Assembly (NCBI GenBank): GCA_964030785.1
Contig: OZ034970.1
Coordinates: forward strand, 33,644,443-33,708,442
Origin: Siderastrea siderea
Taxonomy: Eukaryota > Cnidaria > Anthozoa > Scleractinia > Rhizangiidae
Length of the DNA stretch: 64,000 nt
Direction: 5' to 3'
In this document: positions 41,376 to 62,260 of the stretch, piece by piece
Layout of the letters: each line of letters starts with the position of its first letter
Position numbering within the stretch: the first letter of the stretch is position 1
Notes under the pieces: generated by a model
Told to the model about the DNA's origin: nothing
The model's input: only the letters and a program-made list of their open reading frames with translations
Database searches by the model: none
Translations under genes and position numbers: made by a program

Positions 41376-42944
41376 TAATCCACTGAATTACACACAAAAC
41401 TTAACCTTTTTCACTCGAAGATAACAACAACAAGCTTAATTACCAAATAGAAAAAGGAAAAAAAGTTAAACTTTACAATATAATATATTAATACAAAAAG
41501 AGGTAATGTTTACTCAGGATAACTATAAAGCTAATCGAGCTGAGTAAAACTACAGGACCACTACAATATCGCAAAAGACCACTACTATCGCAGAAGACCA
41601 CTACAATATCGCAAAAAAGAAGCTCGTCAAAAGGATGGTTTCTTTTGCCAAGTACAGGGTGATCCAAAGCGACCACCCCGTGCCTAGCAAAAGCATTCAA
41701 TAACATTACATCACATAGAGTCCCCTTACCTCAGGAAATTATTGATAGCAACAGCAACTCTACCTGAACAGACATAGAGAAAGGTGAAGGCTTTCTAGCA
41801 AGATATCAGAGCCAGCTGTAGCAAAGAGCAGAGGAGCAATTAAGGGGAAAGTGGGAATAAACTAGTCAGGGAAAACCGACATTATCAAAGGGGGCTTTTT
41901 CACCTCTTCAAAAGCAAGAAAATTAACGGAAATGGGCTAAATGAGAATAAAAGTTAGTTGTTTCTAGGGAAGAGTCACAACATATATGCTGTGTTAACTG
42001 TACATGTAGGTAAAGATGAGTCAATGTTATGCCCAAAAACTGTTTGGATTTTTTTTCGTTTTGGTACCAATGACTTGGACGTCATGACACGTCATAATTG
42101 ACATGTCATAAGCCCAATCTGTTAAGCTAATGACGTGCTACAAACGTACCAAGTTTCATCACAAGAGTGTTAATACTTTTCGAGATCTATAGGCCCCAGG
42201 TTCAGAGACTCAAAAAAAGCCCAGGCGAAATAGGGTTAAGCCTTGGTCACATGGACTTAACAACATCCAACATTTTTAAAGTAAACTTTGCTGCACTAAT
42301 GTTTCATGGCAATCAAACTCTGTTCAACACCATTCGGCATCATTCAATGTCCTTCAGATTCATTTAACATCATTCTACGTTGCGCCCAAACGCGTTTAAC
42401 TTGCAGAATGTTGAATAGTGTTGAATGGAAGTATTGACTCCGTTTTGCCGGAACCTTAAAAAAAAACGAAAATATCCGCGTTTTGTGCCTTGTAACTCAG
42501 CAACAAGTGAGTACGGTAACTTCAGATGGAATTAAGAAAAAAAACTGTCTTGCTCTAAAATAGATTTTAAAAAAAAACAGACGCGATATACAGATTATGC
42601 ATTATGTATTACACGTACTTTACATTTAAATATTTGGGATGGTTGTATCTACAAATTTGAAAAAAAATACACAGAATATTTAGAAGCTGTAAACATAAGA
42701 CTCCGTTACGTACGTTACGTTACGTCTGTAATATTAAAAGCTTAAACTGTTTCGTCACAGGATTTTCTGTTCACTACTTCGTACATACTTCCTCCTCCTT
42801 CTGTTTTTAAGAGAAGATAGACTTGAGATGGAAACAGAAAAGAGGCGTGCTAGGAGATAAGCTTCCACTTCTGTCTGAAGATGGTGTGACCATGTAAAAG
42901 AAAGACATTTGGAATAGGAGGAGGAGGAGGAGGAGGAAGAGGAG
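41376..42944. other. non-coding left flank of the composite element
   Basis: No gene. A degenerate cluster of TTCAAC / ATTCAAT words lies at 42318-42425, and a (GGA)n tract at 42918-42946 abuts the first recognisable base of element copy 1. A short ACGT-rich run (TACGTACGTTACGTTACG) is at about 42705. Confidence 0.4.
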
Positions 42945-43225
42945 GAGTTCCCCTTTTTTGAAGCCTTAAAATAACACTAAGTACTGCGAAAATCTTTCTA
43001 AAACTATATCTCTTGGTAGTCTTATACAGGAAAAAGCTAAAAAGTACATTCTCAGATCTTTTGCTAAGAACTACAAATAAATCTGGACGATTTTCAGCAA
43101 CAGCGTTCCTCGTAAGGGGAACGGCCATGGAAAGGCACGCTTGTTCCTATACTGTAGCCTTAAATTTATATCAGCAAACAAGGGTTTACCCAGAGCGATT
43201 TTGTTTAATGATATCTACGTGAGTT
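42945..43225 (+). repeat. block B, left leader of element copy 1
   Basis: It aligns to 51253-51545 in copy 2: 'AAGCCTTAAAATAACAC', 'GCGTTCCTCGTAAGGGGAAC', 'AAAGGCACGCTTGTTCCTAT', 'TTATATCAGCA' and 'CAGAGCGATTTTGTT'. Similarity is about 75-80% by eye, clearly lower than that of block A. Confidence 0.75.
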
Positions 43226-43309
43226 TGTCTCCGGCATATCCGTTGTATCCGTTGAGTTTATACAATCGATGTTGGATTGCAAAAATTGTATTAAAGCAAA
43301 GGTTGATCA

Positions 43310-43636
43310 CGATCTTTGGTGGTTCACCGTTAAATCCGTAGGATCCATCTTTTCCGTGTGGATCTAAATGGAAAAGAAATGCATTAAGCATTGACTGCTA
43401 GTGAAATTCACACACGGTAAAACTCTTAAAAAGAGTACCGGAGATTACGGATTTCCCGGAGACATGAATGTTTAATAAGACAACTTGCAATCCTGACTGA
43501 CTGCTAACTGAAAAAGACTCTTAAAAGAGTAGCGGAAAATACGGATTTCACGGAGATATGAATGTTTAATATTATTCAATGTTAATTTAATACAATACTT
43601 CTCTTTTTTACTGAAAGTATCTTTATACTATTATTA

Positions 43637-43733
<97 letters not shown>

Positions 43734-45745
43734 TCGTTTTCAAAAACATTGCTACTTGAAAAATATATTTAACAATTATTCTACGAGGGCGCGCTGGATA
43801 TCGAATGATAGATAACCAACGAGGCGCGTAGCGCCGAGTTGGTTATAATCATTTGATATCCAGTAAGCCCGAGTAGAATAATTGTTTTATTAAAAACTTA
43901 ACCACTATTTTAAAAAAATCAAGAAAGAACGGGAAAACTGAGAAAAGAAATAAAAAGGGAACAAGAATCGATCACATGACTGAACGAAAAAGGCGCCAAA
44001 ACCTTGCGAAGTATTGCAGCGTTTCATTGCAAAGCTGAATGAATCAATGAAAACTACTCGAAAGTGAACAAAGTGGCACAAGTTTTGGAAAAAAATCTTC
44101 TAACTTTTGGCTCTAAAATATGGTACATGTTTGATTTTTCCTGAAACATTGTTGTAATCATCGTTCAAAGCGGATTGAAGCTGTACAATTTCACCATATT
44201 AGCTGCCGGAGTTGAAACTGAACAAGTTTGTAATCTGTTCGCACAACGGAGCCATCATGTGCGTGTTTGATCGAACTGAAGACAGAACAAATTTGATCTT
44301 GAAGAGGTAATTTCTATGCATCTCAGAAGCAAGATTACTGTAGCGAGGAACATTAGAATTCACCATCATAGTTTGTTAAACGTAAAGCGCAAAATGCAGT
44401 TGTTCTCGGTTTAGAGGTTGCGGACGGAATGGTAAAAACAACATTCAAACAACTGGAAAAGCGATTCAACTCCGTTTACATGGCATCCGATTTCCATCTG
44501 AGCATTTGGATCTGTTGGAACACAGAGCTACAACGAGTGCAGGTAAACCAGTGTCAATTTTGCGTGTTAAGCCGAAAAAAATCTATTCCTTCCTTCCTTC
44601 TTGGTAGTTTGCAGCTGTATTTTTTAGTACTTGTTTAGACTGCTTCATGACCTTTGCATCGACTTGCCATGAATGTGTGATAGTTTTTATTAAATGCTCC
44701 TTCCCCATTTCACTGTGTTTTATTTTATGTCTTGTCTTGATATTTTGAAGTGGAAAGCCTTCCTGATAAAACCTACCGTTTGTTCAATTTCAATGATCGA
44801 CGTGACGATCGATGAAAGAAATTAAGTTTAATTGTAAACACAACGCTTGAATTTCTGTTTCTGCACAGTTTCTTCAAACAATTTTGACTTATGTTAGACG
44901 ACGCTGTTGGTGATGCTTGTTGATGACGCTGTTGGAATTTCTGCTTAATTTAAATTCGCTGCCAAGTGATTTTTTTCTCGTCCACTTTTCTCGCCGGGTC
45001 GCTCGCGAGGAAAAACCTTTCAGCTCACTTTGTTGTTGAGTGTTCATTGACCACATTTGGCCGCAGCAGGTATATGAGCTGATAGCCTAGCTCCGTTCAG
45101 CCAATCAAAATGCTAGAAATCCAATATACGTAGTCCAGTTTTTAATAAATACATATATACATCTTTTGTCTTCACAACGCGAAAACAAAAGAATAAATAT
45201 GAAAACAAAAGGTAAATATATATGTATATATATTTTTCAAGTTGCAATGTTTTTGAAAACGGGTGTATATATATATATATATATATATATAATTGTATTA
45301 AGATACTGACAGTAAAAAAGAGAAGTATTATATCAAATTAATTTTGAATAATATTAAATATTCATATTTCTGGGAAATCCGTGAAATCCGTATTTTCCGC
45401 TACTCTTTTAAGAGTCTTTTTCAGTTAGCAGTCAGTCAGGACTGCAAGTTATCTTATTAAACATTCATGTCTCCGGGAAATCCGTGAAATCCGTATTTTC
45501 CGCTACTCTTTTAAGAGTCTTTTTCAGTTAGCAGTCAGTGAGAACTGCAAGTTGTCTTATTAAACATTCATGTCTCCGGGAAATCCGTGAAATCCGTCTT
45601 TTCCGCTACTCTTTTTAAGAGTTTTACTGTCTATGAATTTCACCAGCAGTCAATGCTTAATGCATTTCTTTTCCATTTCAAAGAACTTTTCACCACACAC
45701 GAAAAAGATGGATTTTACGGATTTTGTGGAGCCATGGAGCTTCGA
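43310..45745. mobile_element. nested inverted-repeat structure with an inner transposon
   Basis: The left arm (43310-43640) reappears inverted at 45300-45745, including 'CAGTCAATGCTTAATGCATT', 'TTTTCAGTTAGCAGTCAGT' and 'AATCCGTGAAATCCGTATTT'. The right arm holds three direct units of 103 bp (GGGAAATCC at 45372, 45475 and 45578). The left arm holds two. Between the arms is a second element (43730-45266) with about 37 bp terminal inverted repeats ('CACTCGTTTTCAAAAACATT' on the left), bounded by long TA runs (43640-43729 and 45267-45292). Inside that, 43780-43890 is another palindrome around 'GATATC.AATGAT'. No transposase frame is visible. Confidence 0.65.
43640..43729. repeat. (TA)n microsatellite
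   Basis: A near-perfect TA run of about 90 bases forms the left border of the inner transposon. A shorter run at 45264-45292 borders it on the right. Confidence 0.95.
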
Positions 45746-46515
45746 GTTCATACATTTTCATACACTTTTTGTTTTCGTCTTAGACAATTGTTTTTTAAAG
45801 ATTTCCCAGAGACATGAAGCTTCGGTTGAGTTTAAGTTCCACCTTGAGCATTACAGAAACTTCTTTTAAAAAAGGTCCGTTGTGAAAAGGCATGAGAAAG
45901 ACAATCATTTCTTGCATTTCATTACCAAGTTTGCTCCTAAATGGTGACACTAAATGCATCACATCTTTTCGGTCGTTCCTTTGAACCATTGTTTGAGAAA
46001 AGGCACCGGCTGCTACCTGGATTGAATGACAGTTTTGATTGCATTGTTTGAGCGTCCGAGAAAACAAGTCAGGGAACAAGTCTAATGATCCTATCGTTAT
46101 TGTATTTCACCAAAAAGGGTAGGTTTTTTGCTTCGATTTTTCCTGGGGAGCACTATCATAATGAAGCGATTGCATTTTTGGCGTTGAACTTGCCCTCTAA
46201 ATTACATCAGAGCGTCCTTATTGTCCTGCGCTAACAACAGCGACTCATGCTTTAAAGAAACGTGCAAAAAAGAGGAACGCCCTTTATAACGCTCATTTCA
46301 TAGTTACATCATCTCCGACACGTCCTCGTCAACAAATTTGACTTCAAAACATGACAAACAAACTAATGAATCATCTTTCACAGTTATTCATCAGCACGCC
46401 GAAAACATAGCCAACAAAAGCCTAAACTTTCAAATTTATTCGTCAAAATTTCACAGCGCTGATCCACCATATAAACACCGCACCCATGCCACAACATTTG
46501 TGCTACGAAAGAAGA
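45746..46515. other. leader between nested insertion and Rep gene, copy 1
   Basis: A 60 bp stretch at about 45888-45950 ('CATGAGAAAGACAATCATTT', then 'TTTGCTCCTAAATGGTGA') resembles 53045-53105 in copy 2 and may be leader or a small conserved frame. Otherwise nothing is recognised. Confidence 0.4.
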
Positions 46516-48102
46516 ATGCAGCGAACAAGACAACCATGTCGACAGCTCAACAGTCAGGGTATAAAGAGTACGGCCTTGGGCTACCTTACGCCAGTTATAA
46601 GCGGAAGCTGTAGCATTATCAGCGCTAAATGTGTTTGCAAAGTCAAAGATAAGGCCTTGCCAAAGGCGTGGGCAACTGTTTGCGGAAAACGAGATTTGTG
46701 CGACCGTGCAATATCAGGTTAGTATTTGTTGCAATACGCCGATTTCAGATGAGATTTCAAAGAACGTTTTAGTGCAAAAGTTCGACGCATTTTATCTTTC
46801 TAATACTGCAGGTATCCACAACGTAGCATTTTTCTTTAGCACCATAGCAAGCCAAGAGAAAAAAGTGGAAGTATCAACGAGAACACAGACGAGGAGAACA
46901 GTTCTGGCGATGAAATTCCAAGCTCTATTTCCCAACAATGGCTTGAAGGAAACTTAACGAACGTAAACAAATCACTCTGCCCTGCCATCGCATACTGCAT
47001 GGCGTTGACTGCAGTAAACGGTGCGCCCGCCAACCCAATTTCTGTACACAAAACCCTGTTGACTTCAGAACTGGAAGTCACAGCAACACAGGTAATTAAA
47101 TTATTTTCTTACTTTTCGATAACCCAAGCATTCCCTTAGCCGTGAACATATTAGTCAAAATTGAGAACTAAAAAAATGAAGAATCAGAGTAAGGAAAAGC
47201 CAAAGCCAAAGAGGTTTTGTCCAAAACGGTTTGCTCGAAACTCGGGAATCAAAAACAAACAGGCAATTATTGACCCTCTCTTGATTCATCTAATTCTTTG
47301 CTAGCATTTAAGATGTTTTCTCTTCTCAGTTGCTTTGAAAGAAAACCTAACAACGAAGACTGTACTTTTTTCTTGTGACGCTGCTATTATCAACTTGAAT
47401 TTTGTGACTGGGAACGATGAACTCAGTTTTCAATTGTTTCTGTTATTTTCTGATTGAAAATGTGCTTGTCCCACGGAAAAGTCATGTCAAAGGTTTACAT
47501 GTCCAAACTGAATTTCTACCTGTCCCGGACAATCGGACACGGGTTTTGGTGCACACTGATTACTGTTAATAATAGTAATGATGATAATAATCAACGATAC
47601 AAGCGGTCAGTCAGTAAAGAAAAAGGAAACATAGAACCGTGTTTGGTAAAATGCTTCAATTTGATATCCTTCAGGTACAGTTTCAAGAGGGAAAAGAATC
47701 CCCAGCCACAGCAGAACTCTACAAAGTGTTGAAAGACCACAAAAATCCTTTCATGCAAGACCTCGTTAGCTCGTCCTTCAAACACTGTTACCAAAACGAA
47801 GCGAGGAAGGTGGTCGGCCATGATGGCTTATGCACCCACCGCAAAGCGAGAACGGCACTGACGACGACGAAGAAGACGAACAGGAGATGTACATCACGCA
47901 AAGACCCAAAACGCCTTCCTACATGCCTTCCTACGACACTTCATTCGACTTTCCGTGTCCACCGTCGCCCTTCTCGTTGGCCAGAACCGCGAGAAAAAGA
48001 CCTCGCCTTGCCGAAAGCCAGTCGTCCATTGGACAGCAGAAGAAAATAACCAGTTTTTCCTGTCGCAGCAACGCCCTCGAAATTAGTATTTTGTTCAAGT
48101 GA
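46516..48102 (+). pseudogene. Rep-like gene of copy 1, helicase domain deleted
   Basis: Three exons are inferred by comparison with copy 2: 46516-46717 (TCAG|GTTAGT), 46812-47091 (TGCAG| to ACAG|GTAATT) and 47675 onwards (TTCAG|GTACAG). The N-terminal Cys-containing region ('PCRQLNS', 'AKCVCKV', 'RDLCDRAISG') and the 'LYKVLKDHKNPFMQDLV' region match copy 2 at roughly 60% identity. Exon 2 has a one-base frame change near the A-run at 46858. At about 47815 the match breaks off and jumps to an acidic C-terminal tail (47830-48102) that ends with nuclear-signal-like 'RKRPR' and PIP-box-like 'QKKITSFS'. The whole SF3 ATPase is absent, so it is not a working helicase. Confidence 0.7.
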
Positions 48103-48522
48103 CTATTTTCAGTCAGTGTTATTCGATGTAATTTGTTAACTGAAAGCGTAGAAGACACAAACAGTAGGAAAAAAAACATGTGTGAATATTAAGTTGTTTC
48201 TTTGACATTGTGCGAGATGAAATCAAATGTATTTCTCAGTTGAAATGATGAATGTCATTTATGTTTTCTCAGAATGGTTTAGACAGTCCACAAGAATGAA
48301 CCAGTGGAATTTGTCAGTTGCGATTTATTTTGTTATCTCGTCGATTGAAAGTTAGCGTATCGATTAAGTAATGCATGTAAGGAAAGGAAAGGAAAACGTC
48401 AACCTTGATTAAAAGAAAGTCACTTTTCGAGTGCAACTTTGCTCACTTTACTTCAACTATCTCTTACACGATAAAGGGTGCGTCGGGTCGGTCCCATATT
48501 TTATTAGACGAGTTTTGGCACA
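48103..48522. other. convergent 3' intergenic region of copy 1
   Basis: It lies between the two converging genes of the element. AT-rich, with no frame and no repeats. Confidence 0.5.
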
Positions 48523-50181
48523 TTAGTTTGTTCCAGCCCTTTTCTTGAGAGAGTCCGCCGTTCTTCCGTCTTGGAATTTGAGATCGGGATCCCTCAGAAT
48601 TGCCGTCCACTGCCCAAACCCGTGCCGATCGATTCCCTTCTTCAGAAAATCGTCCTCGTCTGCCGTGAATTTCAACACCCGACGATAATTTCTTTGAACT
48701 CGCAATTGGTTTGTGGGCGGGGAATCCTTTTCTTTAGGGGGCGCGCTCTTTGTGTCTGCTGTTTCGACTGGAGCTGCAAGACTTGAAGTTGAGCCGCTAA
48801 ACCTCGTTTGCACTTCCCTATCCACCTCCGAGCCTTTCGTGCCTTGTAGCTTTTGTAGACACTAGTGAGCTTTGACAGCAACTTCGCGCGATCTTTGCTT
48901 TTGATAGTGAACTTTTGCAACGGCAGAACTGTCTTTTTGGTCTTCGGACAAAATTTGTTGCTCCTTGCTTGTGAGCAGATTGAGGCTTTGCGTCTCGACT
49001 ATTTGACGATAGCGCGTCTGATGAACTAGTTTACTCATGACGTCGCCCAATTTGCTGTGCTGGCCTCCATTTCTCGTGACCAGAACGAACTCGCACTGGG
49101 GTTTTAGCAATGGCGTTACGAAATTTATGTAGCTATCGAGCACCTGCATGCTTGCATCGGTCAGAATTAAGGAGTCAAATCCATATTTGCTAGCAGTCTT
49201 GAACTTTTTCTGGTCGATGAATCCCCCGTTCTCCTTAGCTGCTCTGACCATGTCCACTGTCAAATACCGATAAGACATAGGCCGAGATCCCTTCACCTTG
49301 ATGAACAAATACACTGCGACAAATTTCGTGGCAAATGTTAAGTCCGAAGGATTAACTTGACCTGGAATAGCTTTGCACGTCTTCACAGTGTTCTCGTAAC
49401 GAGGCAAATGAAATGTCACCACTTCTAACAGTTCTTCCATGGTTACCCAGTGCCCCCTAGCATCCAAACTTTCAATGTCTAGATCTTGTGTCCACTGCAG
49501 TCTCATCATCTTTGCCACCGTCTTGCGCACTCGTTTAAGGTACAACTCCGATGAGGACAAATTTCGAAGAACTGTGTCTGATGCACCGTTTATTTTTTTG
49601 AAGTCGATTAATTCGGAGATCGCATCAATGTAGCCCAATCGGCCACCGTGTCCGAGTTTGCATTCATCTTGCAAGTAGTCGATAAACTTGAACAACAGAC
49701 TATGAGAACACAGGCTAAAGTCCAGCACTTCAAAACTCAATTCCTCTTCATCTTCGCAGCAAAATTTGAGAAATTTAAAGCATCTCTTGGCTATCTGCTG
49801 AGCTGCACGATCTTTCTTGCAACCCCCACCACTTCCAGTCAACCATTTCGTGAATAAGTCGCCAATTTGGCTTGAAACTGAAAACGAAGGCATTACCCTG
49901 GCAGTTTGTTTTGTGATTTCACCCGATGTATCATCATCGGCAAGTTCTTTGGTACTTGAAACGTCGGGTTTTTCGTCAAAGAAAAAGAACCATTTGTGCT
50001 TGGTGTGCACATGTTTCCTGCAGCCACGTTGACTTTTAAATCCATCGTGATCACACGTTTCTATTGGACAGTGATACAAGCTATCTGTTTCTTCTTTTTC
50101 CAAGTGAAGCCGTTTTGGTTTTGGTGATGAGCCATCAATTTTCGACCAGTCAACCTTACCCTTTCTGTTCATGACGGACAT
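48523..50181 (-). CDS. zinc-finger / tyrosine recombinase / Myb protein with internal TAG
   Basis: The ATG at 50181 opens 439 codons to a TAG at 48864-48862. The same frame then continues 112 further codons to a TAA at 48523. The N-terminus has a C2H2 finger (C38, C43, H57, H62). A core-binding-like helical region spans about 100-230 and the catalytic domain about 250-430, with box I Arg in 'GSRPMSYRYLTVD' (300/305), Lys in 'KKFKT', HxxR as 'HQTR' (387-390) and the nucleophile Tyr426 in 'KVHYQKQ'. After the TAG comes a Myb/SANT repeat ('FTADEDDFLKKGIDRHGFG', then 'GQWTAIL'). By family knowledge it should cut and rejoin DNA at short inverted-arm sites such as the one at 51212-51249. The TAG separates the recombinase from its Myb domain. 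The rest is intact and uninterrupted by introns. Confidence 0.85.
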
Positions 50182-50207
50182 CTGAGTGATTCACACAATT
50201 TGTTCCA

Positions 50208-51226
50208 CTTACATAAATAGTGAAGAAAACACAAAGGCGACAAAAAAACAATGGCTGTATTGTGCAAGTTTAAACTTGCCCCAACCTGCCCCAACTTGCC
50301 CCTGCTTGCTCAGGCATGTGTCTGCTTGCCACTGTTCATTATTCTTAAGTAAGCTTACAAATTCAATGTAAGAAATGGCGTTGTTGCAATTATGTTCAAC
50401 CTTTCCCGGACAAGTCTATAAGCGCCTCGAAAAGTCTTTTACAATCCGCTACTGACTCTGCTTCGTGATGTTTGAAACATAAAACACTACACCAAATGTT
50501 TTTGCCAATTAAAAAGCGATAAAATCATAGATGGCAAGAAAAGAAGAATGTTTCTGTTGAACAAGATGTACAAAGGAACTGTCATTTCTAAATAGGAACC
50601 ATTTTACATAAATAGGAACTAATGGTTAGGAACAAACTGTTCCACGTGCCAATAAAAAGGAACATTTCGTTCAAAACGGAAACTGTTAATGGGAACAATT
50701 GTTCCTCAAGTGAATAAAAAGGAACCAATTTTTCAAAGCAGGAACAATGTTAGAAAGGAACAAACGTTCCTTTACAAAAAAAAGGAACGTAATTAATTGG
50801 GAACCAAAGTTCCTCGTGTCAGCATAAAGGAACAGCCACTCTACAAGGGAACGCACTAATAGGAACAATTGTTCCTCAAGCGATTAAAAAGGACCAAAAT
50901 GAGAAAAGAGGAACAATACCATTGGGAACACCTGTTCCTAGGCCACTCATTTAGGAACAAAAAGTTCCTTTCAATGTTAAAAATTCGGAACAAAAGGTTC
51001 TTTTTAGCTCTAAATGAACACTTTGTTCCTATTTTTAACAGCAATTTGTTCCTTTTGGGAACAGTGCTCAAAAATAAAAGTAAGTTTAAAAGCCACTTAA
51101 AGGGTGAATAAAATATGCCAAAGCATCTTATGACTCTCTATATTGAACAGATACAACAGCCAAAATTTGATTGATAAAATCATGCTAGAACATGTTCAAA
51201 TTTGGGAGTAAAAATTTTGGGAAACG
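50208..51226 (+). repeat. block A of copy 1, GGAAC/GTTCC dyad array
   Basis: It is nearly identical to 57296-58414. It begins about 27 bases upstream of the recombinase start with a C-rich minisatellite (CCCCAACTTG units, 50276-50335), then a unique 200 bp, then about 500 bp (50570-51065) holding some 30 GGAAC or GTTCC pentamers. At least seven form close dyads such as GGAACAATTGTTCC, GGAACAAACGTTCC and GGAACACCTGTTCC (pentamers 4-5 bases apart). Position and symmetry suggest a protein-binding or replication-control array. It must also contain the promoter for the recombinase gene. Confidence 0.8.
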
Positions 51227-51249
51227 TAGAAGATCGTTTCCCAAAATTT
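51212..51249. other. loxP-like recombination site at the tandem junction
   Basis: The left arm AAATTTTGGGAAACG (51212-51226) and right arm CGTTTCCCAAAATTT (51235-51249) are perfect inverted repeats of 15 bp around the asymmetric 8 bp spacer TAGAAGAT. This is the architecture of a tyrosine recombinase crossover site. The left arm ends copy 1 and the right arm begins copy 2. The half-site plus TAGAAG recurs at the right end of copy 2 (58401-58420). Confidence 0.85.
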
Positions 51250-51252
51250 AAG

Positions 51253-51545
51253 TTCCCTTTTTGTAAGCCTTAAAATAATACCAACTACCGCGAAAATCTC
51301 TCCATAACTGTGTTTCCCTGTAGTTTTATGTAGGGCTATGCCCGAAAATACGTTTTCCTGTTTTTTTTTTTTGGGCCAAAAACTACAACTCAGACAAGAT
51401 GTTTTTGCTTAAAAGCGTTCCTCTTAAGAGGAACTGCTATGAAAAGGCACACTTGTTCCTATAACAGTATTAAGAGATATTGGCCGTACATTTATATCAG
51501 CAGAACTTGGGTTAATCCAGAGCGATCTTGTTCCATGATACACAA
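51253..51545 (+). repeat. block B, left leader of element copy 2
   Basis: Counterpart of 42945-43225. Shared words include 'AAGCCTTAAAATAATACC', 'GCGTTCCTCTTAAGAGGAAC' and 'AAAGGCACACTTGTTCCTAT'. A short hairpin (CATCATCTCTGG / CCAGAGATGATG-like) follows at about 51553-51580. Confidence 0.75.
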
Positions 51546-51732
51546 GTGTTTGCCATCATCTCTGGACAGAGATGATGACACACATTACGTTAAGTGTGCT
51601 TTTGGTTTCCGCTGAGTTTGCTCGCTGAATTTAAGAGCATTAATTTCATAGATGTCCTCGAAACTCTGAGAATGAAGAAAGAGGTCCAAAACAGTCCTCT
51701 CTTGATTAAAAGTTCACTTCTTGAAAGGAAAC

Positions 51733-52118
51733 TCTCAGAACACCGCCAAATCCGTAAAATCCGCCGCATTTTAGACAAAAAAAACCAAAATCACCCCGTC
51801 AACTTCCACTTCAAACTGGAAGTACAAAGGCCAGCAAGAAATCTGTGGTTAGGGCGGATTTCACGGATTTTACGGAAACTTTAAACTGTAAACATCTTTG
51901 AAGAGAATATATGAATATATTACATACATGTGATACTTGCAGTTAAAAAAGGAAGTATTAAATCATGTATGTTCTAAATATCCGTGAAATCCGTAAAATC
52001 CGCCGCATTTTAGGAAAAAAACAAAATCACCCTGTCAACTTCCACTTCAAACTGGAAGTACAAAGGCCAGCAAGAAATCTGTGGTTAGGGCGGATTTCAC
52101 GGATTTTGCGTAAATGTT
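51733..52118. repeat. paired palindromes built on TCCGTGAAATCCG
   Basis: Two near-identical units of about 135 bp (51746-51880 and 51981-52114). Each opens with 'ATCCGTAAAATCCGCCGCAT' and closes with its approximate inverse 'GGCGGATTTCACGGATTTT', so each can fold into a hairpin. The stem interior includes the inverted pair 'AACTTCCACTTCAAACTGGA' region. Related words (AAATCCGTGAAATCCGTATT) occur in copy 1 at 43450-43560 and 45370-45600, always on the left side of the Rep gene. Confidence 0.7.
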
Positions 52119-52135
52119 TTATACAAATATGACTT

Positions 52136-52342
52136 AACCCTTTCACTCCCATTACCAGTTCTCATTCTCCTAACCGATAACCATACATTTCTTTGTTGGC
52201 CGTTCCTGAGAATTTGGTGTTAAATCAACACCGTATTCCCTAATTGATTATCTTCTTAATTCTCATTATTTGTCTCCTTGACAGTGTATTAAAATGATGA
52301 GGAGAATTTAAATGCTGGTCACTCCTAGGAGTGAATGGGTTG
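52136..52342. mobile_element. MITE with AACCC(T/A)TTCACTCC ends
   Basis: Left AACCCTTTCACTCC and right GGAGTGAATGGGTT match as inverted repeats in 13 of 14 bases over about 205 bp. The interior has a partial inverted pair (CTCATTCTCCTAA / GATGAGGAGAATT). It is absent from copy 1, so it was inserted after the copies diverged. Confidence 0.65.
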
Positions 52343-52861
52343 ATACTGCTCTTTTACAGTGTAGATGTCTTATATTGTTCATCGGAAGACAGTTAAAGTA
52401 AAAAAAAAAAGAGAGAGAGTGAGAAGTATAAATAACATTTATCTAACACTTGCATGTACAAATTCTGCTGGTGAACTAGCACGTTGTCAGAGAGTGGAAC
52501 TTCTTGCTGTCCAAAAAAAACTGTAGATAGGGCAGATTTCATGGTATTTGCGGACAAAAGAACCTCCACCCAGCGATTTAGATTCATGAACAAATTTTCA
52601 TTGTCAACTTTTTATGAAATATGACATGATTAACAAATGACCCTGACGGTACCAGATGATTATTACCCCTTTTTGTCATGAAAAAGTGCAAATAACAAAT
52701 CTCGCACCAAGTACTCGAGACATTTGTTTCTTGATTTTGCGATGCTTAGTAAAGTCCGTAACAAATGTGAAATAAACATGGAATTGAGCTTGGGCTGCTT
52801 CAATAGTCTTCGACTGCTAATTGCTACCTATTATCACGGAAAATAATGGAACCAATGTTTC

Positions 52862-53110
52862 ATGGAGTCTAACGAACAACATCGACACCTGTTGCTTCGA
52901 TCGTTTGTTTTGCGTTATGTGATGTACATCAAAGCTATGAAAAACAAGCTCGAACTTGACCTTGGATACTTCAAACGTTTTTCGTCAGTAATAAGGCTTC
53001 TTGGTTGCGGCAAGATAACAAAACCGGGAAATAATTGCACTAAACATGAGAAGGATATGTCATTTTTCATCAAAGTCCTTTCAAACTTTGCTAGGAAATC
53101 TCTGGGGTAA
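52862..53110 (+). CDS. possible small ORF upstream of the Rep gene
   Basis: An 82-codon ATG frame. Its last third ('KHEKDMSFFIKVL', then 'FARKSLG' and TAA) has a weak counterpart in copy 1 at about 45885-45948 in the same direction, also ending in a stop. This could be a small element-encoded peptide or just conserved leader DNA. No domain is recognised. A minus-strand frame of 127 codons overlaps it (52915-53298) and is no better supported. Confidence 0.25.
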   Translation: MESNEQHRHLLLRSFVLRYVMYIKAMKNKLELDLGYFKRFSSVIRLLGCGKITKPGNNCTKHEKDMSFFIKVLSNFARKSLG

Positions 53111-53268
53111 CAGCAAGACTGTAGCGTGTTAAAGCAGGTTACAACTTTGGACCTCAAATGAAACACTTCGATCAGTTTCCTTTGATTTTCAAATTTATTC
53201 CTCTTGATTATCACAAGTAGATTTGCGTATAAAATTTGTGCCTGTTCTGAGAAGAAATCATTCCCAAC

Positions 53269-56200
53269 ATGAACAAGACGAGGTATCCTTGTCGGCAATT
53301 GAACAGTAACGCCATAAAGAGTGGAGCTTTATTCTTTGTGAGCCCTATCATCGTTGGAAAGTGTAGTATTGTCAAAGCGCAATGTATATGTGAAATCGAC
53401 GAAGGAGGCCTACAGAAAGCTTGGTATAACGTCTGTAAAACCAGAGACATTTGTGATAAGGCAATTTGTGGTAAGAATTTGCTTCTCAATTTCCTGTCTT
53501 GCCTTTCAATTCTTGAAGAAGGTCTTGTTGCTTAAGAATGATCGTTTTGTTTCCCACAGGAGTAGGAAACGTAGCATTTTTCTTTGGAGCTATAAGTGCC
53601 CAAAGCCCTCAAAAAAGACGAGGAAAAAAGGGAGCAACCACAGAGGAATACAGAAGTGATGAAAGCAATGATGAAGCATTGACATCCAGTCAAGTAGCAA
53701 GCACAGCAAGTCAAAATTGGATTTCTAACCATCCGACAATCATCAATGAGAAATTATGCCCTTGCATCAATTACTGGATAGCTTTAATTACGCCAAATGG
53801 TGCAGCGGCAAACCCCATCGTAATTCACCGTGCGCTCTTGGAATGCGGCGTGGAGACTGTGGCATAACTGGTATGTGAATGTTCATTTTAACATCGTTTC
53901 TCCAAAGTATTGTGTATTCGGATAAATAGCATATTTGAAACGTAGGCCTTGTTTTCTGTCCGTTTTAATAGCTTATTGCAGAATACCATTCGAACACCAC
54001 CTTAACAACAACCACGGTGAGAAAATCATGCGAAAACAGAACTCCATGATATCGAAATGAGTTGTGTTAAAGTTGGACCATTCAGAGTCACTATTCAATA
54101 TTTCGAGACATTTCCAAACAGAAAACACAACACACTTAAGACGGATTCCGCTCAACGTTCGAGCAATAAGTGCAAAAAATATTTACCAAAAAACTACTCA
54201 TAGCACGGTAACATTTTAAATGCTATTTGAAACATCTCACTCTAGTTCACTTGCCCAAGTGACCCCGCGATGAAATTCTCAAGCATTCTCAAGAAAATTA
54301 ATTTCAAATCTCGTAAAAGTATGCTAAAAACGGGCGCCATTTTGTTTTGAACTGACATGAAGCGTCTTTTTAATTGAAATATGGATAACTTCAAATCCAA
54401 TTTTCTCTCCCGGGGTCAGCTTGGGAGCAAAAGTAACGATAAATTCTTCTTATCTGTGCTCAAAATGTGACAGTGCTGCAAGTATTTTTTTGGTAACTTA
54501 ATTTTTGCACTTACTGCTCGAACGTTGAGCGGAAATCGTCTTAATCTTCTAACAGTGCCACAAAACCAAATTAATGGATTTGCTGCTATTCTATTGTCAG
54601 GTACCCTGCTATGAAGGCAAGGAGTCGGCTGCCATGAAAGAACTGTTCAAGGTTTTAAAAGATCACAAAAACCCTATGATTCAGGAATTAGTAAACTCTT
54701 CGTATGAACACTGCTTCCAAACTGAAATGGATAGTCTGCTAGGCGAAGGAGACTTGATGGACTCGCAAGATTGTGGAACAGAGAAAGTGACCAGAGTGTG
54801 GCTCACAAATTTGAATTTCGGCTCTATGTTGAAGTTGTCCGTCAATAAGCTTCAAGACGCGAAGTTAGACATCGATCTGTTTGGTTTTGAAGAGAACAAC
54901 GCACAAAGTGCAGACGAAGAAGCAAGACTGTCGCATAAATTGACTGTGCTCGTCAACGACGTAGGATTGGCAATGAAGAAAATGGAGTATGCTCTCTTTC
55001 GCGGAAAAATCTACAAGAAAGTTCCCATGGCCATGTACACTTACGCTTACAAGTGCGAAATCCGAGTTTTCATAGAGAGCCTTGCAGCGAACGAGTTCTT
55101 TAAGGCAAGACTACTAAAGGACATGAGAAAGATAATTGACATACTCTCTGACCCAGACTGCGAGGTGGTACATCCAATTTCCAGCGACTACAATCTCATC
55201 GAGGTTAACGGCGGACACTGCTGGTCCATTAAGAGAAAGGCGCTTTGTAAAGAACCCAATTCCAGACGAGAAGATAGGCATCATCTCTCCGAGAGGTTTC
55301 ACAACGTACGAGCCAGGTAAAGAGCCTGACCCCAAATACTTCAAAGAAATTTTAGAAAACAGCCTCTCAGAAGTGGAAATTGGTGAATTTTGCGAGGATT
55401 TCCTAAAGCTTCTCAACTTCAACAAAAAATGCCACAAGGACAAAGTTCAATGTCTCACTGGTGATGCAAATAGCGGCAAAACCAGCCTATTCCATCCCAT
55501 CCTCGGGCCTGTATACCGCACAAACATTGCAACAGTCACCAAGCAAAGGGTATTCAACAAGGCCATGATCTCGAAATCCACTGAAGTGATCTTCATTGAC
55601 GAGGCTTCGACGTCCACAATGAACTTCGACTACTGGAAAATCTTAACCCAGGGGGGATATACTGCATGCGATGTGAAGTATCAAACAGCAAAGTCGTTCA
55701 TCAACCGCTGCCCCATGTTGTTAACGGCACGAAACAAATTGGAGTTCAAGCCTAAAGACCAGCCCGCGATGGATCGTAGGCTTCGAAACTACAACTTCAC
55801 GAGTCTCCCGGCTCCCAAGAAAAGAGTCTCGACATGGCTACGGACACCCGATGGAGTACATTGTGTGGGCGCCCGCACAAGCCAGGAGGTGCACGGCATC
55901 GGCTACTGAGGACGAGCTAAGTGACGAGGATAGCGTGGAGGATGGTGTATTGGGAGCAACAGAAAAGAAAGAGCTTCGTGCGTTGAGCTTGGACAAAGTG
56001 CTAGATGAGTGTGATCGCCCAACTATCGGAATTGGTGCGCAGGGTGCAACGGAAAACACTCAGGATGATTCGGACGCAAGTCAGGACGACCAGACCGTCA
56101 GTGCTTTGAGGAGAGTTGTGGAGCAGTGCGCTCAGGAGTCACTCCGCCACCGCCAAGTTTCCGCCATGTTGCATGCGCGACTCAGCGAGCGAGAGATACG

Positions 56201-56993
56201 GAGGCAGGCAGAGGAGATGGTGTACCGACAAAGGCAGGAAAATCTCGTGTCGAAGGGCGTCACAAGCGAACATGTGGCCTTGCTTCCGAGGGATGCATCT
56301 GAACCCATGCCTACGCAAATTGAAGACGACTTGGCCGCCTTCAAGCAGCAGACCCTTGGAGAAGAGTTGAAGACAAGGTGAGAAAGAGCACTTGCCGCGT
56401 TTCAAACACCCTGGTTAGTAGAAACCGAGCGGGAACTTCACAAGCTCACCAGGACACTAGAGCGGTCAGCCCTGAATCAGGAGAGAAGGGCGTCCATGGA
56501 GGCCTACCGCGAATTGTTGCAAGATAAGCTGAGACAATTTCATCAGAATTATGGTATGACCGGTTGCCAGTTTGCCTTGGAGCAGAGGAAGCGATCGTGC
56601 GTTGCTCTGGGCCTCCTGAAGAAAGAACAAAGGCATGTCGTCACCAGCCTCTTCCATGTCCTGCCGACCGAGGACGAGTTCGGCGAATCTTCCCGATCGG
56701 AAGATCACGGAGATGACAGCACCACCTACGAAGAATCCGTGGATTACATACCTTCAGCTACTGACAAACCAGCAGTCCCCTCAGTGCAAGGTGCCACCTC
56801 GGAGAACGAGAATAGCAGTGACGGAGACATCTTCATAACGCCATTGCCAAGCCTGCAAACACCCAGTACAGCTCCTCCCGGTTGTTCAAAGTTTGCCCAG
56901 AAGAGACGAAGGCCCGCGTTCCCTGACGGAAAGGGAGCGAAGAAACCGTGCAAAAATAGCATCTTGAAGTACTTTTGCTCTAGTCAAAAGTAG
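53269..56993 (+). pseudogene. Rep-like protein with SF3 helicase, three exons, several lesions
   Basis: Exons: 53269-53470 (TGTG|GTAAGA), 53560-53870 (CCACAG| to CTG|GTATGT) and 54601-56993 (GTCAG|GTACCC to TAG). Phases agree with copy 1. The N-terminal part is Cys-containing and unrecognised. Exon 3 has the SF3 ATPase: Walker A 'GDANSGKTS' (about 55460), Walker B 'VIFIDEAS' (about 55587), motif C-like 'MLLTARNK' (about 55714) and an Arg-finger-like 'MDRRLR' (about 55770). By motif spacing it resembles parvovirus- and papillomavirus-type replicative helicases. A long acidic tail ends in a Lys/Arg-rich signal and PIP-like 'NSILKYF'. Lesions: TAA at 53865, frame changes near 55235 and 55840, and in-frame TGA at 56379. 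Expected role: origin melting and unwinding for element replication. Confidence 0.75.
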
Positions 56994-57295
56994 CCTAAAC
57001 AAAGAAATGACACTTAACGCTATGAAGGCTTTTGCCCATTGATTCATTGTGAAGACTCGACAGTATGATAGTATTCTGTGTGAAACACTAATGGCTTCTA
57101 GATCAGTTTCGTTCATGTATTAGTAGTAGTGGTAGTATCTTGAAATTAACAAGATCCTCATTAATCTCAAGTGGTTCTCAAGTTAAATCATTGTCCCTTT
57201 TGTGCGCATGTCAATCGCAGCCCAGCCCTTTTTTTTTAAAAGAGGCTTCTGTTCTTCTCCGAGTCAACAATAAAAAAAATCCACTTTTCATGTTG
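56994..57295. other. 3' region of the Rep gene and recombinase deletion point
   Basis: Non-coding and AT-rich, with a short TAGTAGTAGTGGTAGTA run (57121). Block A homology starts directly after it at about 57296, so the missing recombinase gene was removed with its downstream breakpoint inside this interval. Confidence 0.5.
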
Positions 57296-58414
57296 TCATA
57301 AATAGTGAACAAAGCACATAGGCGACAAAAAACAATGGCTGCATTGTGCAAGTTCAAACTTGCCCCAACCTGCACCAACTTGCCCCTGGTTGCCCCAACT
57401 TGCCGAAACCTACCCCAACTTGCCCGTGTTTGCTCAGGCATACCTCTGCTTGCCCAGTGTTCATTATTCTTAAATACATTTACAAATTCAATGTAAGAAA
57501 TGGCGTTGTTGCGATTATGTTCAACCTTTCCCGGACAAGTCTATAAGCGCCTCGAAAAGTCTTTTACAATCCGCTACTGACTCTGCTTCGTGATGTTTGA
57601 AACATAAAACACTACACCAAATGTTTTGCCAATTAAAAAGCGATAAAATCATAGATGGCAAGAAAAGAAGAATGTTTCCGTTGAACAATATGTACGAAGG
57701 AACTGTCATTTCTAAATAGGAACCATTTTACATAAATCGGAACTAATGGTTAGGAGCAAACTGTTCCACGTGCCAATAAAAAGGAACATTCCATTCAAAA
57801 CGGAACCATAAATGGGAACAATTGTTCCTCAAGTGAATAAAAAGGAACCAATTTTTAAAGCAGGAATAATGTTAGAAAGGAACAAACGTTCCCTTACAAA
57901 AAAAGGAACGTAATTAATTGGGAACCAAAGTTCCTCATGTCCGCATAAAGGAACAGCCACTCTAAAAGGGAACGCATTAATAGGAACAATTGTTCCTCAA
58001 GCGATTAAAAAGGACCAAAATGATAAAAGAGGAACAATACCATTGGGAACACTTGTTCCTAAGCCGTTCATTTAGGAACAAAAAGTTCCTTTCAATGTTA
58101 AAAATTCGGAACAAAAGGTTCTTTTTAGCTCTAAATGAACACTTTGTTCCTATTTTTTTGCAACAATTTGTTCCTAAAATGCTAAAAGGACCACCCCAAA
58201 GAGGAACAATCATCCCTTAATGGGAACGTTCCCAAAGCAAAAATGGGAACAGTGCACAAAAATAAAAGTAAATTAAAAAGCCCCTTAAAGAATGAAGAAA
58301 ACATGCCAAAGCATCTTATGACTCTCTATGCTGAATACATACAACAGCCAAAATTTGATGGATAAAATCATGCTAGAACATGTTCAAATGTCGAAGTGAA
58401 AATTTTGGGAAACG
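57296..58414 (+). repeat. block A of copy 2, GGAAC/GTTCC dyad array
   Basis: Near-identical to 50208-51226 over most of its length, including long exact runs such as 57508-57620 against 50388-50500. It differs by extra CCCCAACTTG units (57359-57440) and an extra 60 bp with further GGAAC/GTTCC words near 58185-58250 ('GGGAACGTTCCC' is a perfect 12-mer palindrome). It ends in the half-site AATTTTGGGAAACG. Confidence 0.85.
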
Positions 58415-58420
58415 TAGAAG

Positions 58421-59432
58421 ACGACGGCGATAGTTTGTATCGAAAATTAAAACAAATACACGGATTAAAAGCGCTCCATGAATGCACCATAAACAGTGCA
58501 GTAAACGGGATCACCGTTTGAAAAGCGCAAATAGGTGGGTCGTCCCAGCCCCACAGAAAAATGGTGCAAAACATAAAAACAAAATGTGGAACCACACATA
58601 AAATAAATGCCACTGCTATGGCCACTGACAATCGGATAATCTGCATGTGGTGTTGATGGCCGCAGGATGAAGCACTTTCGGAAATCTCTCCCTTTTCTTC
58701 CGTTTGATTGCTCCTTCGCTTTAAAAAACAATGATATGGCTCCATAGACAATGATGAGCGACGATGGCAAGAAACGTTGCCGTGATGTATCTCTTTGCGG
58801 TTTCGTCGTGGTTAAATGCGGGCCCCAGTCGTACTCACAATAACACTCATTCCCGTCAGTGAACAGTCTCAAAGTGTAAAAATAAGGAGCATGAACAGCA
58901 GTGGCCATAGTCCAGGCGCAACCAATGCAGATTAAGCGCACTTTGGGTGTGATGCATCTAAACTTCAGTGGAAAGGGAACAGCCATGAATCTGTCGAATG
59001 ATATCAACAGAAGGCTTTCGACAGAGACAAGCACAGAAACGTCAGGGAGGAAGAAGCACAGTTTACATAAGATGTTTCCAAACATCAAAGGGCTGTGAAC
59101 GATGAAAGCATCCGACCCTCGAAAACTTTAATCGGCATGATGTTCAACGGTGTGAAAAGATCGGACACGGCCATGTTGACAACGAAGGCTGAATCTACTG
59201 ACATGCGGACGTGCTTGTTCTTCCAAACGACCAGAATGACGAGGACATTTCCAACTAAAGAAACCAAGAGAATGACCAGATAGGCCAGGGATTTGAGTAC
59301 GATTGCCGCAGTGGAGTCTGCTGTGAAACAGTCTCGGTCGGTACTGTTCAGAAGTTCATTAGTGATTAGTGACCTGTTAGTTGGAAAAACGGAGCTGCCG
59401 TTTTCAAACATCAGTGTAAAATGGGGTGACAT
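58421..59432 (-). pseudogene. class A (rhodopsin-like) GPCR, frameshifted and interrupted by the element
   Basis: Seven transmembrane segments are readable in three frames. ATG-side piece 59432-59086: N-glycosylation-like Asn sites, TM1 with the GN motif ('SLVGNVLVILVVW') and TM2 ('NMAVSDLF'). Piece 59088-58745: Cys of TM3 ('KLCFF'), a DRF in place of DRY ('LISFDRFMAVP'), TM4, an ECL2 Cys and TM5 ('FLPSSLIIVYGAISLF'). Piece 58751-58421: TM6 ('CVVPHFVF' with the conserved Pro) and TM7 with NPCICF in place of NPxxY. Single-base frame changes lie near 59095 and in a T-run near 58735. The frame then crosses the element border and stops at 58370. The ligand is unknown; peptide/orphan-type cnidarian receptor is the best description. 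Confidence 0.8.
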
Positions 59433-59655
59433 GCCTGAACAACTCCTACGCTCGTGTCTTTGCCGTTCTCATAACTTTGCTCTCACGCGTGTATCTTTTA
59501 AGGACCCTCCTAAGTTATATGATATTTACTGAGTGTGGTCCTTAAAGCATTTCGTTAAGTAATGTTTGCTTTCAATTAAAAGCCATTTGTTCAGAAAAAT
59601 ATGTTTCAAATTGGGCTTTTATGGTTGGAATTGAGTGACAAGGGGTAAGGCTCAG
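59433..59655. other. 5' flank of the GPCR
   Basis: Short intergenic stretch between the receptor start and the retroelement remnant. No clear promoter motif. Confidence 0.4.
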
Positions 59656-60570
59656 CTATTTTCTCTGCGTTTTTGTTGGAGGGCTTTTCTTTCTGTCGTC
59701 AAAACTCACTTCTGAAAACGTATTTTGTATAAAGCTCTCTGGGTATCCTCTTTTTTGAAGATGTTTTTCGGAGTTTTTGATCTTCTGTTTAAAACGTCCT
59801 GGTAAAGTTTGTTGTCCTGACAGTCTTAAAGTCCCTCCTTTAATGAAACCTCTTTTGACACCGGTTGGTTGGCATGAGGAAATGTTTGTATATTGAAATG
59901 TTTCAGTGGGTTTAAAATGCGTGCGTACATCAACTACTGATTCTTTTTTTATTTCTCGCCTTTGCAAGCGTTAGTATTCAAGAACGTCGTTTCTGTTTCA
60001 GATATGTCAGCCGTAAATTTGAGTGTAGTGTGGGTATATGTGCTTGTCCAATGAAGTTAGTTATTTCCTCCTCTCTGCTAACGTTCCAGAGTGAAAAACG
60101 TCATCTATGAATCGTGTCTAAATGAGCGGCTTCATCACGCTTTGGCTAAGGATATGTTTCAACTTTCACCATGGAAATGTTAGCAAATTCAACCGCCATT
60201 TTAGTACCCATGGTGGTGCCGTGTGTCTGTAGATAGTTTTTCCCATTAAATTGGAAGGAAGTTTCCTGTAGGAAAAGCCTCAGCGCTCGTTCTAGTGGTA
60301 GCGTAGGGGCGGGAATTTTATTTTATAAGAAATAGACGTATGCTCTGCAAGCGGTCTGGTATCCCCTTCTTGTGGTATATTTGTATATAGCCTCGTTACG
60401 TCCATTGAGACAAGTAATACTTTTTTTCTGGTACCTTTGTTTGTTCTTTCAATGACGTTAATGAAAGCGGTTGTATCTTTTAGGTGCGACTTCTGTTGTT
60501 GTGTAACAGGCTGAAGTAGTTTGTCAACAAAAGCTGATAGTTGCTCTGTTGTACCTCCACATCATGATAT
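59656..60570 (-). pseudogene. Penelope-like reverse transcriptase remnant
   Basis: Read on the minus strand in order: 'QLSAFVDKLLQP' (about 60540), 'VSMDVTRLYTNIPQEG' (about 60400), 'FQFNGKNYLQTHGTTMGTK' (about 60220), the catalytic 'RFIDDVF' (about 60110), then 'HFKPTETFQYTNISSCQP' and 'GVKRGFIKGGTLRL' and 'KRGYPESFI' (59967-59656). This order and wording is typical of Penelope-like elements. Stops and frame changes separate the pieces, no GIY-YIG endonuclease is visible downstream, and both ends are missing. Confidence 0.7.
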
Positions 60571-62260
60571 ATAAGCTTTATTTAAATATACTATGAATAC
60601 TGTGAATTTTGAAGACAGAAAGCTAGCACTCCCACAAAAACGCAGAGAAAATAAACGAACATTGCCTTTTGCAACGCAATAACCACAATCAGTGCCCAAT
60701 TTAAACAGATTATCATGAAGAAATGACATTTGATTAAAAAACAACCATTACGTGACGATACTTAATCTATAAGGAAGCGCCACTAATATTATACAAGAAA
60801 GGGCAGTCCTTAAAAGATATACTCTTGAGATTCGGCTAAAGCACGAGCGTGGGAGTCGTGCAGGCCTGTCACGCCCATTTTGCATCATTGTATTGTTTTG
60901 TATTGTTTTAGAATCAGTTTTCGATACTAGTTCCCAATAATGTAGCGCCTTCAGCCATATACCAACGCCATTTTGCTGAGTGATGGGCGTTTCTGCTGGA
61001 AATTTTGCCCTGAAAGATATGTTAAAATTTTAAGTGTCTGATATCTGTTTACTTAATACCAATTTAGCATAATGGCTTGATGTTCTTTACTTTTCCGATT
61101 TGTACCATAGAATGTCTTATACAGTTTCAAAGTCTCAAGTTTCGTTGTTAAGTACTGTCATGACTATCTTTACTTCTCCGTTTTTTTTTTTAACGGTGTT
61201 TGAATTAATCGTTTCAGTAAACTTTTTTTCATATTTTGGCACAACAATGGTTTTACCAGACAACTCAAAATTGAATTAATATAACTTGCAGTTTGAACTT
61301 CCAACCTGCAGTCTCTCTCCCTGGTAATCAATAATTACACGCAACAACGTCAGCAGTGAAGTTTGCGCCAAGGATCGCTCACTCGTATGAAAGTGCCAAA
61401 TATTCCGCAAAACCAAAGACGTCGGCTATGATGGCAAAAGAGACAAAACTGCAAAATAGATTTCTTTCATAGTTTTGCTAGAATAATGTAACAAGTTACC
61501 AATGTCAACAAAAACATGCCGGCTCACCGACATTTTTAAAGCGTGTGTGAAACACCGATTTTCTTGATTAAAAAAGTCATTGTAAATCGACAAGCCCTAA
61601 ATGGTTATTAGTTGAAAACATTAAAAATGTTGTTATTTGAGACCCACTTTTTCGGTCAAATTTCATTGAGTAAACGATTTGAACAGGTGTCATCCTTTCA
61701 ATTAAGCTCAGCCTTTGGGTGAGAATTTGCGAACGCCGTACAGCTAAAATGCTAGAGAATTGAAATTTAGAAAAAAAAAGTGAAGAAATCAAAGTTCCAC
61801 AGCACATTTTATTCATATTTTCATAAAACGTAGAAAATCGAAAAAAGAAGTAATCTATCGTACGAGAAACTAGGGTCGATGAGGATTAAAGATAATTAAA
61901 TCCTTAAACTGATAACACAATGCCCACCTAGAGCGCGCTCAATGCATGGCGTGAGCTGACATTGCCACACGTTGCAAACATTTTATATTATTGCACTTGA
62001 AAACCAGAATACTATAGAAATTTTTTTTGAATTTTCGAGTGAAAATGCAACGAAGTTTACGCTACTCCCTTTGCTAGGATAAGTGACCATCGACTGCTAC
62101 TCATCACACTAAACAGACAGAACCAACTATGATGTGAGAGACCAGTGCACGCATTTACCAACGACATCAAGGGGGGAGATGATGTGTCAACGTCAAGAAA
62201 GCTTCCAGTCATGACAAAGGATGTGCAACTCAAAGAGGCAATTTGATAATGACAACAACG
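60571..62260. other. no supported gene
   Basis: AT-rich with short frames only (for example 61577-61816 minus). Nothing recognised. Confidence 0.4.

Follow-up and report, generated by a model that had tools for sequence, protein, structure and literature searches.

A probable joined attachment site of a Crypton-like DNA transposon family in Siderastrea siderea

A 38-bp sequence at the boundary of two tandem elements is probably the joined, attP-like attachment site of a high-copy, Crypton-like, circle-forming DNA transposon family. It occupies positions 51212–51249 of the window, by which we mean the whole 64,000-nucleotide stretch analysed here, and consists of two perfect 15-bp arms around an asymmetric 8-bp spacer, TAGAAGAT, placed where copy 1 meets copy 2. 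The sequence and coordinates of arms and spacer are exactly as claimed in the initial annotation. The features of the window are as follows, with the extents of the two copies taken from their end repeats.

42946–51226, plus strand: copy 1, left arm missing
46528–47079, plus strand: what is left in copy 1 of the N-terminal part of the helicase gene (29% identity by tblastn, E 1e-10)
48508–50208, minus strand: decayed recombinase gene of copy 1 (tblastn, blastp, ORFs)
50629–50968, plus strand: seven iteron dyads of copy 1, GGAAC-N4/5-GTTCC
51212–51226, plus strand: right-end arm of copy 1, AAATTTTGGGAAACG; the same arm is found at right edges genome-wide
51227–51234, plus strand: asymmetric 8-bp spacer TAGAAGAT, the putative crossover zone, with GA at spacer positions 6–7
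51235–51249, plus strand: left-end arm of copy 2, CGTTTCCCAAAATTT
51235–58414, plus strand: copy 2, both arms present
53556–56678, plus strand: SF3-like helicase gene of copy 2, broken frames (tblastn pieces 53556–53858, 54637–55450 and 55445–56678)
57815–58089, plus strand: six iteron dyads of copy 2, GGAAC-N4/5-GTTCC
58400–58414, plus strand: right-end arm of copy 2, the third arm in the window, followed by TAGAAGAC
58415–58421, plus strand: outer right edge, which retains spacer positions 1–7 (TAGAAGA); the host sequence starts at 58422

Comparison of the two copies revealed right ends common to both (50212–51233 and 57297–58421), which align in three blocks at 90–94%, and a weaker match between the left ends (42946–43213 and 51251–51540) in three short blocks at 83–87%. 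The interiors of the two copies differ: copy 2 carries an SF3-like helicase gene and lacks the recombinase. Copy 1 retains the recombinase side together with a helicase remnant and copy 2 retains the helicase side, and to judge from these sequences both look like internal-deletion derivatives. The octamers flanking copy 2, TAGAAGAT on one side and TAGAAGAC on the other, are alike at 7/8 positions. Copy 1 lacks the fourth half-site that would be expected at its left end; there, a GGA/GAA microsatellite (~42917–42947) runs directly into copy 1 sequence at ~42946.

The source genome (831 Mb, 402 contigs) was searched with a joined-site pattern of two 12-bp arm cores around any 8 bp, allowing up to two mismatches in the 24 fixed positions. 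Joined sites were found at 81 places, with none for the reversed-pattern control, which supports the earlier proposal of a joined, attP-like site. A chance palindrome was rejected on the same counts; perfectly matched inverted arms of 15 bp separated by 8 bp are not to be expected by chance in 64 kb, the estimate being about 64,000 x 4^-15. Among the 50 listed of the 81 joined sites, all are oriented head to tail and the spacers fall into eight related types, namely TATAAGAT (21 sites), TATAGGAT (14), TAGAAGAT (7) and five rarer types (8 together).

Joined sites recur with regular spacing on contigs C2 (four sites, 5671–5672 bp apart), C10 (three sites, 5416–5419 bp apart) and C11 (seven sites, 8992–9323 bp apart). 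Successive pairs of C2 units are 99.93% and 99.2% identical and two C10 units are 99.93% identical; near-identity of this kind may reflect later unequal exchange or multimeric circles. The C2 array also includes units with different left ends. The loci fetched gave 27 distinct joined sequences in 13 right-end/left-end combinations, one of which is the same site read backwards, leaving 26 distinct sequences and 12 combinations drawn from four right-end and nine left-end classes, some of which differ merely by a small shift. Conservation of the arms among these sequences is built into the search, and the informative part is that unlike flanks are joined at the same base. The right end of the C11 unit carries the arm core despite giving no blastn match to the right end of the C10 unit. 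As a separate observation, six joined sites and an outer right edge lie within 105 kb at G000:C9:5943600-6048803, with differing spacers and spacings, and may together make up one extended array of mixed composition.

Elements end in inverted arms of 12–15 bp, and their outer edges, which carry one arm each, are marked by half-sites. The half-site pattern that requires a non-C base after the spacer occurs at 158 places (control, 11), and half-sites lie at element edges beside element sequence, as had been predicted; in the window, the left half-site of copy 1 is missing. The half-site pattern with C and then a non-G base gave 14 places and none in the control; at least three of these are joined sites with a degenerate left arm (L172–L174). 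Edges were typed on 100 of the 158 half-site places, two rows of which represent one joined site with a 9-bp spacer. The remaining 98 comprise 20 that start with ATC, which are left edges read inwards, and 78 others assigned as right edges; chance may account for a few of the latter. ATC would be expected about 1.5 times in 98 at random, and because left edges are recognised by ATC, the constant GAT in the left class holds by definition. Right edges have T at spacer position 1 in 75 of the 78 listed, G at position 6 in 75 and A at position 7 in all 78, whereas left edges are variable at positions 1–5.

Both edges were read for 10 insertions, and in all 10 the two edge 8-mers differ. The right edge keeps TA[GT]AAGA in nine of these insertions and reads TTGGAGA in the tenth, while positions 1–5 of the left edge continue the host repeat as far as GA. 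GA stands at both ends in 10/10 insertions, and AAGA on both sides in 4/10. Since the edge 8-mers never agree, there is no 8-bp target duplication and crossover is placed inside the spacer: the switch between host and element sequence falls within the 8-bp spacer, at GA. Two right-edge spacers resemble the host repeat around them, AAGAAGAA within an AAG repeat and TGAGAGAG within an AG repeat. Some joined spacers, among them TGAAAGAT and TGGAAGAT, have the appearance of host repeats that were captured. By analogy with Tn916, a mismatch-tolerant recombinase would leave such host-like spacers behind.

Left edges were read 21 times, from 19 of the 20 listed left-type places, one of them twice (L117, L158), and from one place found with the C-then-non-G pattern. 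They adjoin a simple-repeat run of at least 12 in 20 of the 21 reads and of at least 8 in all 21, compared with 0.42% and 2.1%, respectively, of 5000 random 40-mers from the window. GAAA and GGAA units predominate, and GAGAA, GACA, GATA, GTC, CTT and AAT were each seen once; left-edge targets are nearly always simple repeats, mostly purine-rich. Right edges were read 40 times (34 of the 78 right-type places, the window's own included, and six from the C-then-non-G pattern), although three of these reads are really degenerate joined sites. Runs of at least 12 were found in 12/40 right-edge reads and runs of at least 8 in 16/40, so microsatellites are much rarer there. This difference between the two edges points to a tendency of the elements to lie close to the repeat's 3' end.

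A single ORF of the 5.67-kb C2 unit exceeds 150 aa, and it is recombinase-like (570 aa, minus strand). Its N-terminus has a C2H2-like pattern, read from the sequence, for which no profile match was obtained, and its C-terminus has a Myb domain (PF00249, E 2e-5) that is matched in 30/30 relatives and is closest among PDB sequences to TRF2 (E 7.5e-4, with the alignment as query). R301, H396-x-x-R399, H426 and Y435 (P0001 numbering) are invariant in 30 relatives. The distance from R to HxxR is 95 residues, compared with 96 in XerD and lambda Int and 94 in FimB, and the distance from HxxR to Tyr is 39, compared with 34–35 in the reference recombinases; the same simple motif scan did not place the first Arg in Cre or HP1. 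Profile, Pfam and PDB sequence searches gave no match to a known tyrosine recombinase family, hhalign against five recombinases with shallow alignments gave 0.2% probability at the wrong place, and PHROGs gave a single match at E 0.18. We assign the protein as a putative tyrosine recombinase from these motifs and their spacing.

The interval 48523–50181 of the window had been read as the recombinase gene. It does carry tyrosine-recombinase motifs on the element, but represents two frames of one decayed gene (48862–50181 and 48523–48861), in which a gap of 8 residues lies ahead of HxxR, Asp replaces the third-motif His and the Myb end has moved to a different frame. As this copy is decayed, it cannot be assumed to be the element's own enzyme, which was the role originally suggested for it; related open frames occur elsewhere. 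A Pfam match of this copy to PPV_E1_DBD (E 0.038) is below threshold. The frame is open in the C10 recombinase copy that was read, where Trp replaces the first catalytic Arg. The three tandem units at G000:C10:40024549-40037093 have equal recombinase scores, and the array may have expanded with no functional enzyme of its own.

Among the best 76 of 705 recombinase candidates scored in the genome, a sample biased to good copies, 37 have no internal stops. A site lies 1004–1157 bp from the ORF, on its N-terminal side, in at least 48 of these best 76 copies (25 joined sites and 23 half-sites); on contigs with a complete half-site list, 12/50 recombinase copies have no listed site. The protein collection yielded 938 and 809 relatives at E 0.001, among ~8000 scored candidates each, and the named relatives of element proteins come from Oculina, Porites, Nematostella, Montipora and Actinostola. 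The 15-bp arm also matched 64 viral-contig stretches, which were set aside as probable chance matches because a scan of that collection with two recombinase peptide patterns (167 stretches) gave no relative.

The second gene found on these elements encodes a helicase-like protein. In the window, an ORF at 55136–55909 matches DUF5906 (E 3.8e-6; 28.0 bits, just above the cut-off of 27.6), which we take to be an SF3-type domain. Thirteen helicase relatives gave matches to DUF5906 (5), Parvo_NS1 (5) and PPV_E1_C (3), all near or below the cut-offs of these families, and to the GTPase family MMR_HSR1 (6); comparison with PDB sequences gave no clear match. The protein can thus be labelled, weakly, as a P-loop, SF3-like helicase. 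A convergent helicase copy lies 307–968 bp away in 20 of the best 76 recombinase copies and the others have no helicase within 6 kb, with 97 of 105 helicase rows used for this count; many elements carry the recombinase gene only.

The 9.3-kb C11 unit contains two helicase-gene ORFs (465 and 424 aa), a 140-aa cyclin-box ORF (Cyclin_N, E 2.3e-10) and a 605-aa recombinase. Apart from these and one antisense frame, the unit has no further ORF of at least 120 aa, and no capsid gene was recognised in it. The cyclin ORF gave 72 matches in all, and 37 of these reach at least 88% identity across 127/140 or more residues. About 30 matches at 68% identity or less, many with 136-aa open frames, may represent another element family or host genes.

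Pentamers of the sequence GGAAC/GTTCC number 28–44 in the last 1000 bp of each of five units, compared with means of 1.6–2.7 and maxima of 5–7 in shuffle controls. They are arranged as 6–14 GGAAC-N4/5-GTTCC dyads per unit, starting ~170 bp from the right arm, and all 13 dyads of the window (gap 3–6) fall in the two arrays. The C11 unit has the same iteron array even though its right end did not align. These dyads are candidates for arm-type sites of the recombinase or for a helicase-dependent origin.

Excision and insertion by the recombinase through a predicted circle would be the most economical account of these data. A mechanism is proposed where an element-borne tyrosine recombinase, composed of a zinc-finger-like start, a recombinase core and a Myb end, binds the two arms and cuts the element out as a circle that carries the joined site. 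The circle would then insert at one of two kinds of target, a short GA-containing core within a microsatellite or a resident element's edge, and insertion at resident edges would build tandem arrays, unlike elements included. If the GGAAC dyads are an origin for the SF3-like helicase, the circle may also replicate before reinsertion. A broader interpretation, which we put forward tentatively as possible rather than probable, is that these are mobile replicons of anthozoans that combine traits of a transposon with those of a plasmid or capsid-less virus: helicase-replicated circles with GGAAC-dyad origins, some of them cyclin-aided, whose zinc-finger/Myb tyrosine recombinase inserts them into purine microsatellites and stacks unlike elements head to tail into long arrays at a shared attachment site.

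Short perfect inverted ends separated by an 8-bp gap could also belong to an ordinary terminal-inverted-repeat (TIR) transposon moved by a DDE transposase, in which case the spacer would be the target-site duplication of adjacent insertions, and the 7/8 agreement of TAGAAGAT with TAGAAGAC around copy 2 fits that idea. A TIR transposon with a fixed 8-bp target-site duplication was nevertheless rejected, given that the edge 8-mers are unlike in 10/10 insertions. With the 50 listed joined-site spacers confined to eight related types, and with a recombinase-like protein as the sole product over 150 aa of the C2 unit, an explanation of this kind is very improbable.

The arms and spacer could instead form the origin hairpin of a rolling-circle replicon, nicked by a replication protein in the 8-nt loop, so that the tandem arrays would be concatemers. 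Edges that fall inside the loop, tandem units with 99.93% identity in both C2 and C10 and a P-loop helicase that weakly matches Parvo_NS1 and papillomavirus E1 are consistent with such an origin, which we consider unlikely since no nicking-enzyme family was matched among the element proteins scanned, many elements have only the recombinase gene and unlike elements are joined at the same base. This last observation also bears on passive tandem duplication by unequal homologous exchange, where the junction is simply copied along and no recombinase acts there now. Duplication would account for the near-identical units of C2 (99.93% and 99.2%) and C10 (99.93%) and agrees with the Trp at the first catalytic Arg of the open C10 copy, but explains later amplification only: single insertions show the same two edges, and the meeting of unlike ends at the same base, in 12 combinations among 26 distinct joined sequences, led us to reject it as the sole cause. 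As an account of the site itself, we regard it as very improbable.

Recombinase-mediated movement of a circle invites comparison with known site-specific systems. Cre-loxP, Flp-FRT and XerCD-dif use inverted arms around an asymmetric 6–8-bp spacer and require matched spacers. The site described here resembles theirs in its inverted arms (~11–15 bp in those systems) and asymmetric spacer. It falls short of a strict loxP analogue, since its spacer varies among sites and agrees with host targets at just 2–4 positions, surely only at GA. Tn916-type integrative elements of bacteria form a circle with a joined site, have mismatched coupling sequences and show low target specificity. The present sites are closer to Cryptons or to Tn916 coupling sequences than to strict loxP; unlike in Tn916, spacer resolution here is mostly one-sided, which is unusual for the textbook tyrosine-recombinase mechanism. 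Polinton-like viruses with tyrosine recombinases also combine a helicase with such an enzyme, in contrast to which no capsid gene was recognised in the C11 unit.

In their apparent mode of movement the elements are comparable to a Crypton or an integrative element, and among transposons the closest group is that of the Cryptons. As described by Kojima and Jurka (2011; PMC3212892), the animal Cryptons (CryptonA and CryptonI) are tyrosine-recombinase DNA transposons that are present in cnidarians and have short direct repeats at their ends and a proposed circular intermediate; they are reported there without terminal repeats and without a C-terminal domain. Crypton ends are expected to carry direct repeats of 4–6 bp. 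The elements studied here are likewise DNA transposons with a tyrosine recombinase (by motif only) and a proposed circle, and have no reverse transcriptase (C2 and C11 units); any direct repeats at their ends would be short, GA in all 10 insertions read and AAGA in four of them. They differ from animal Cryptons by inverted arms at both ends, the Myb end, iterons, an often present helicase and microsatellite targets. Because they possess terminal inverted repeats and a C-terminal domain, membership of the Cryptons is not established.

Endogenous nimaviruses of crustaceans, according to PMC10871703, encode a tyrosine recombinase with a C2H2 zinc-binding domain and insert into the telomere repeat. 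The C2H2 domain and simple-repeat insertion constitute a likeness by description only, and nimavirus genomes, on the same source, span hundreds of kb, contain many viral genes and use a different repeat. The site and element are not described in the available portions of PMC3212892, PMC3537659, PMC11071296, PMC10871703 and PMC8905726. No description was found in the literature searched, mostly non-subscription sources with Repbase Reports perhaps outside them, and an earlier naming is possible.

Animal tyrosine-recombinase transposons have been described without terminal repeats (PMC3212892), and their insertion has therefore been hard to test so far. Here, one genome provides the joined site, both half-sites, the crossover position and the type of target, with related proteins in several anthozoans. 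To our knowledge, animal elements of the recombinase type are rarely seen with so clear a site. The data suggest site-specific accretion as a route to tandem arrays of unlike mobile elements and offer a candidate recombinase with natural microsatellite targets.

In the window, the elements are flanked by the GGA/GAA repeat on the left and by a GPCR coding region on the right. The element pair seems to be inserted in the serine-rich tail of a rhodopsin-type GPCR gene (58368–59468 and 42755–42976, both minus strand), which matches 7tm_1 (E 1.9e-12 for 58465–59088) and is itself split over two frames. The GPCR frame ahead of the insertion ends in ...YKLSPSSS and the frame past copy 1 opens with a serine run. 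Three other inverted repeats of the window, 40202–40492 (135-nt arms, 95% complementary), 43366–43784 with 45212–45678, and 59418–59709 with 60602–60881, look like other, unrelated short transposons.
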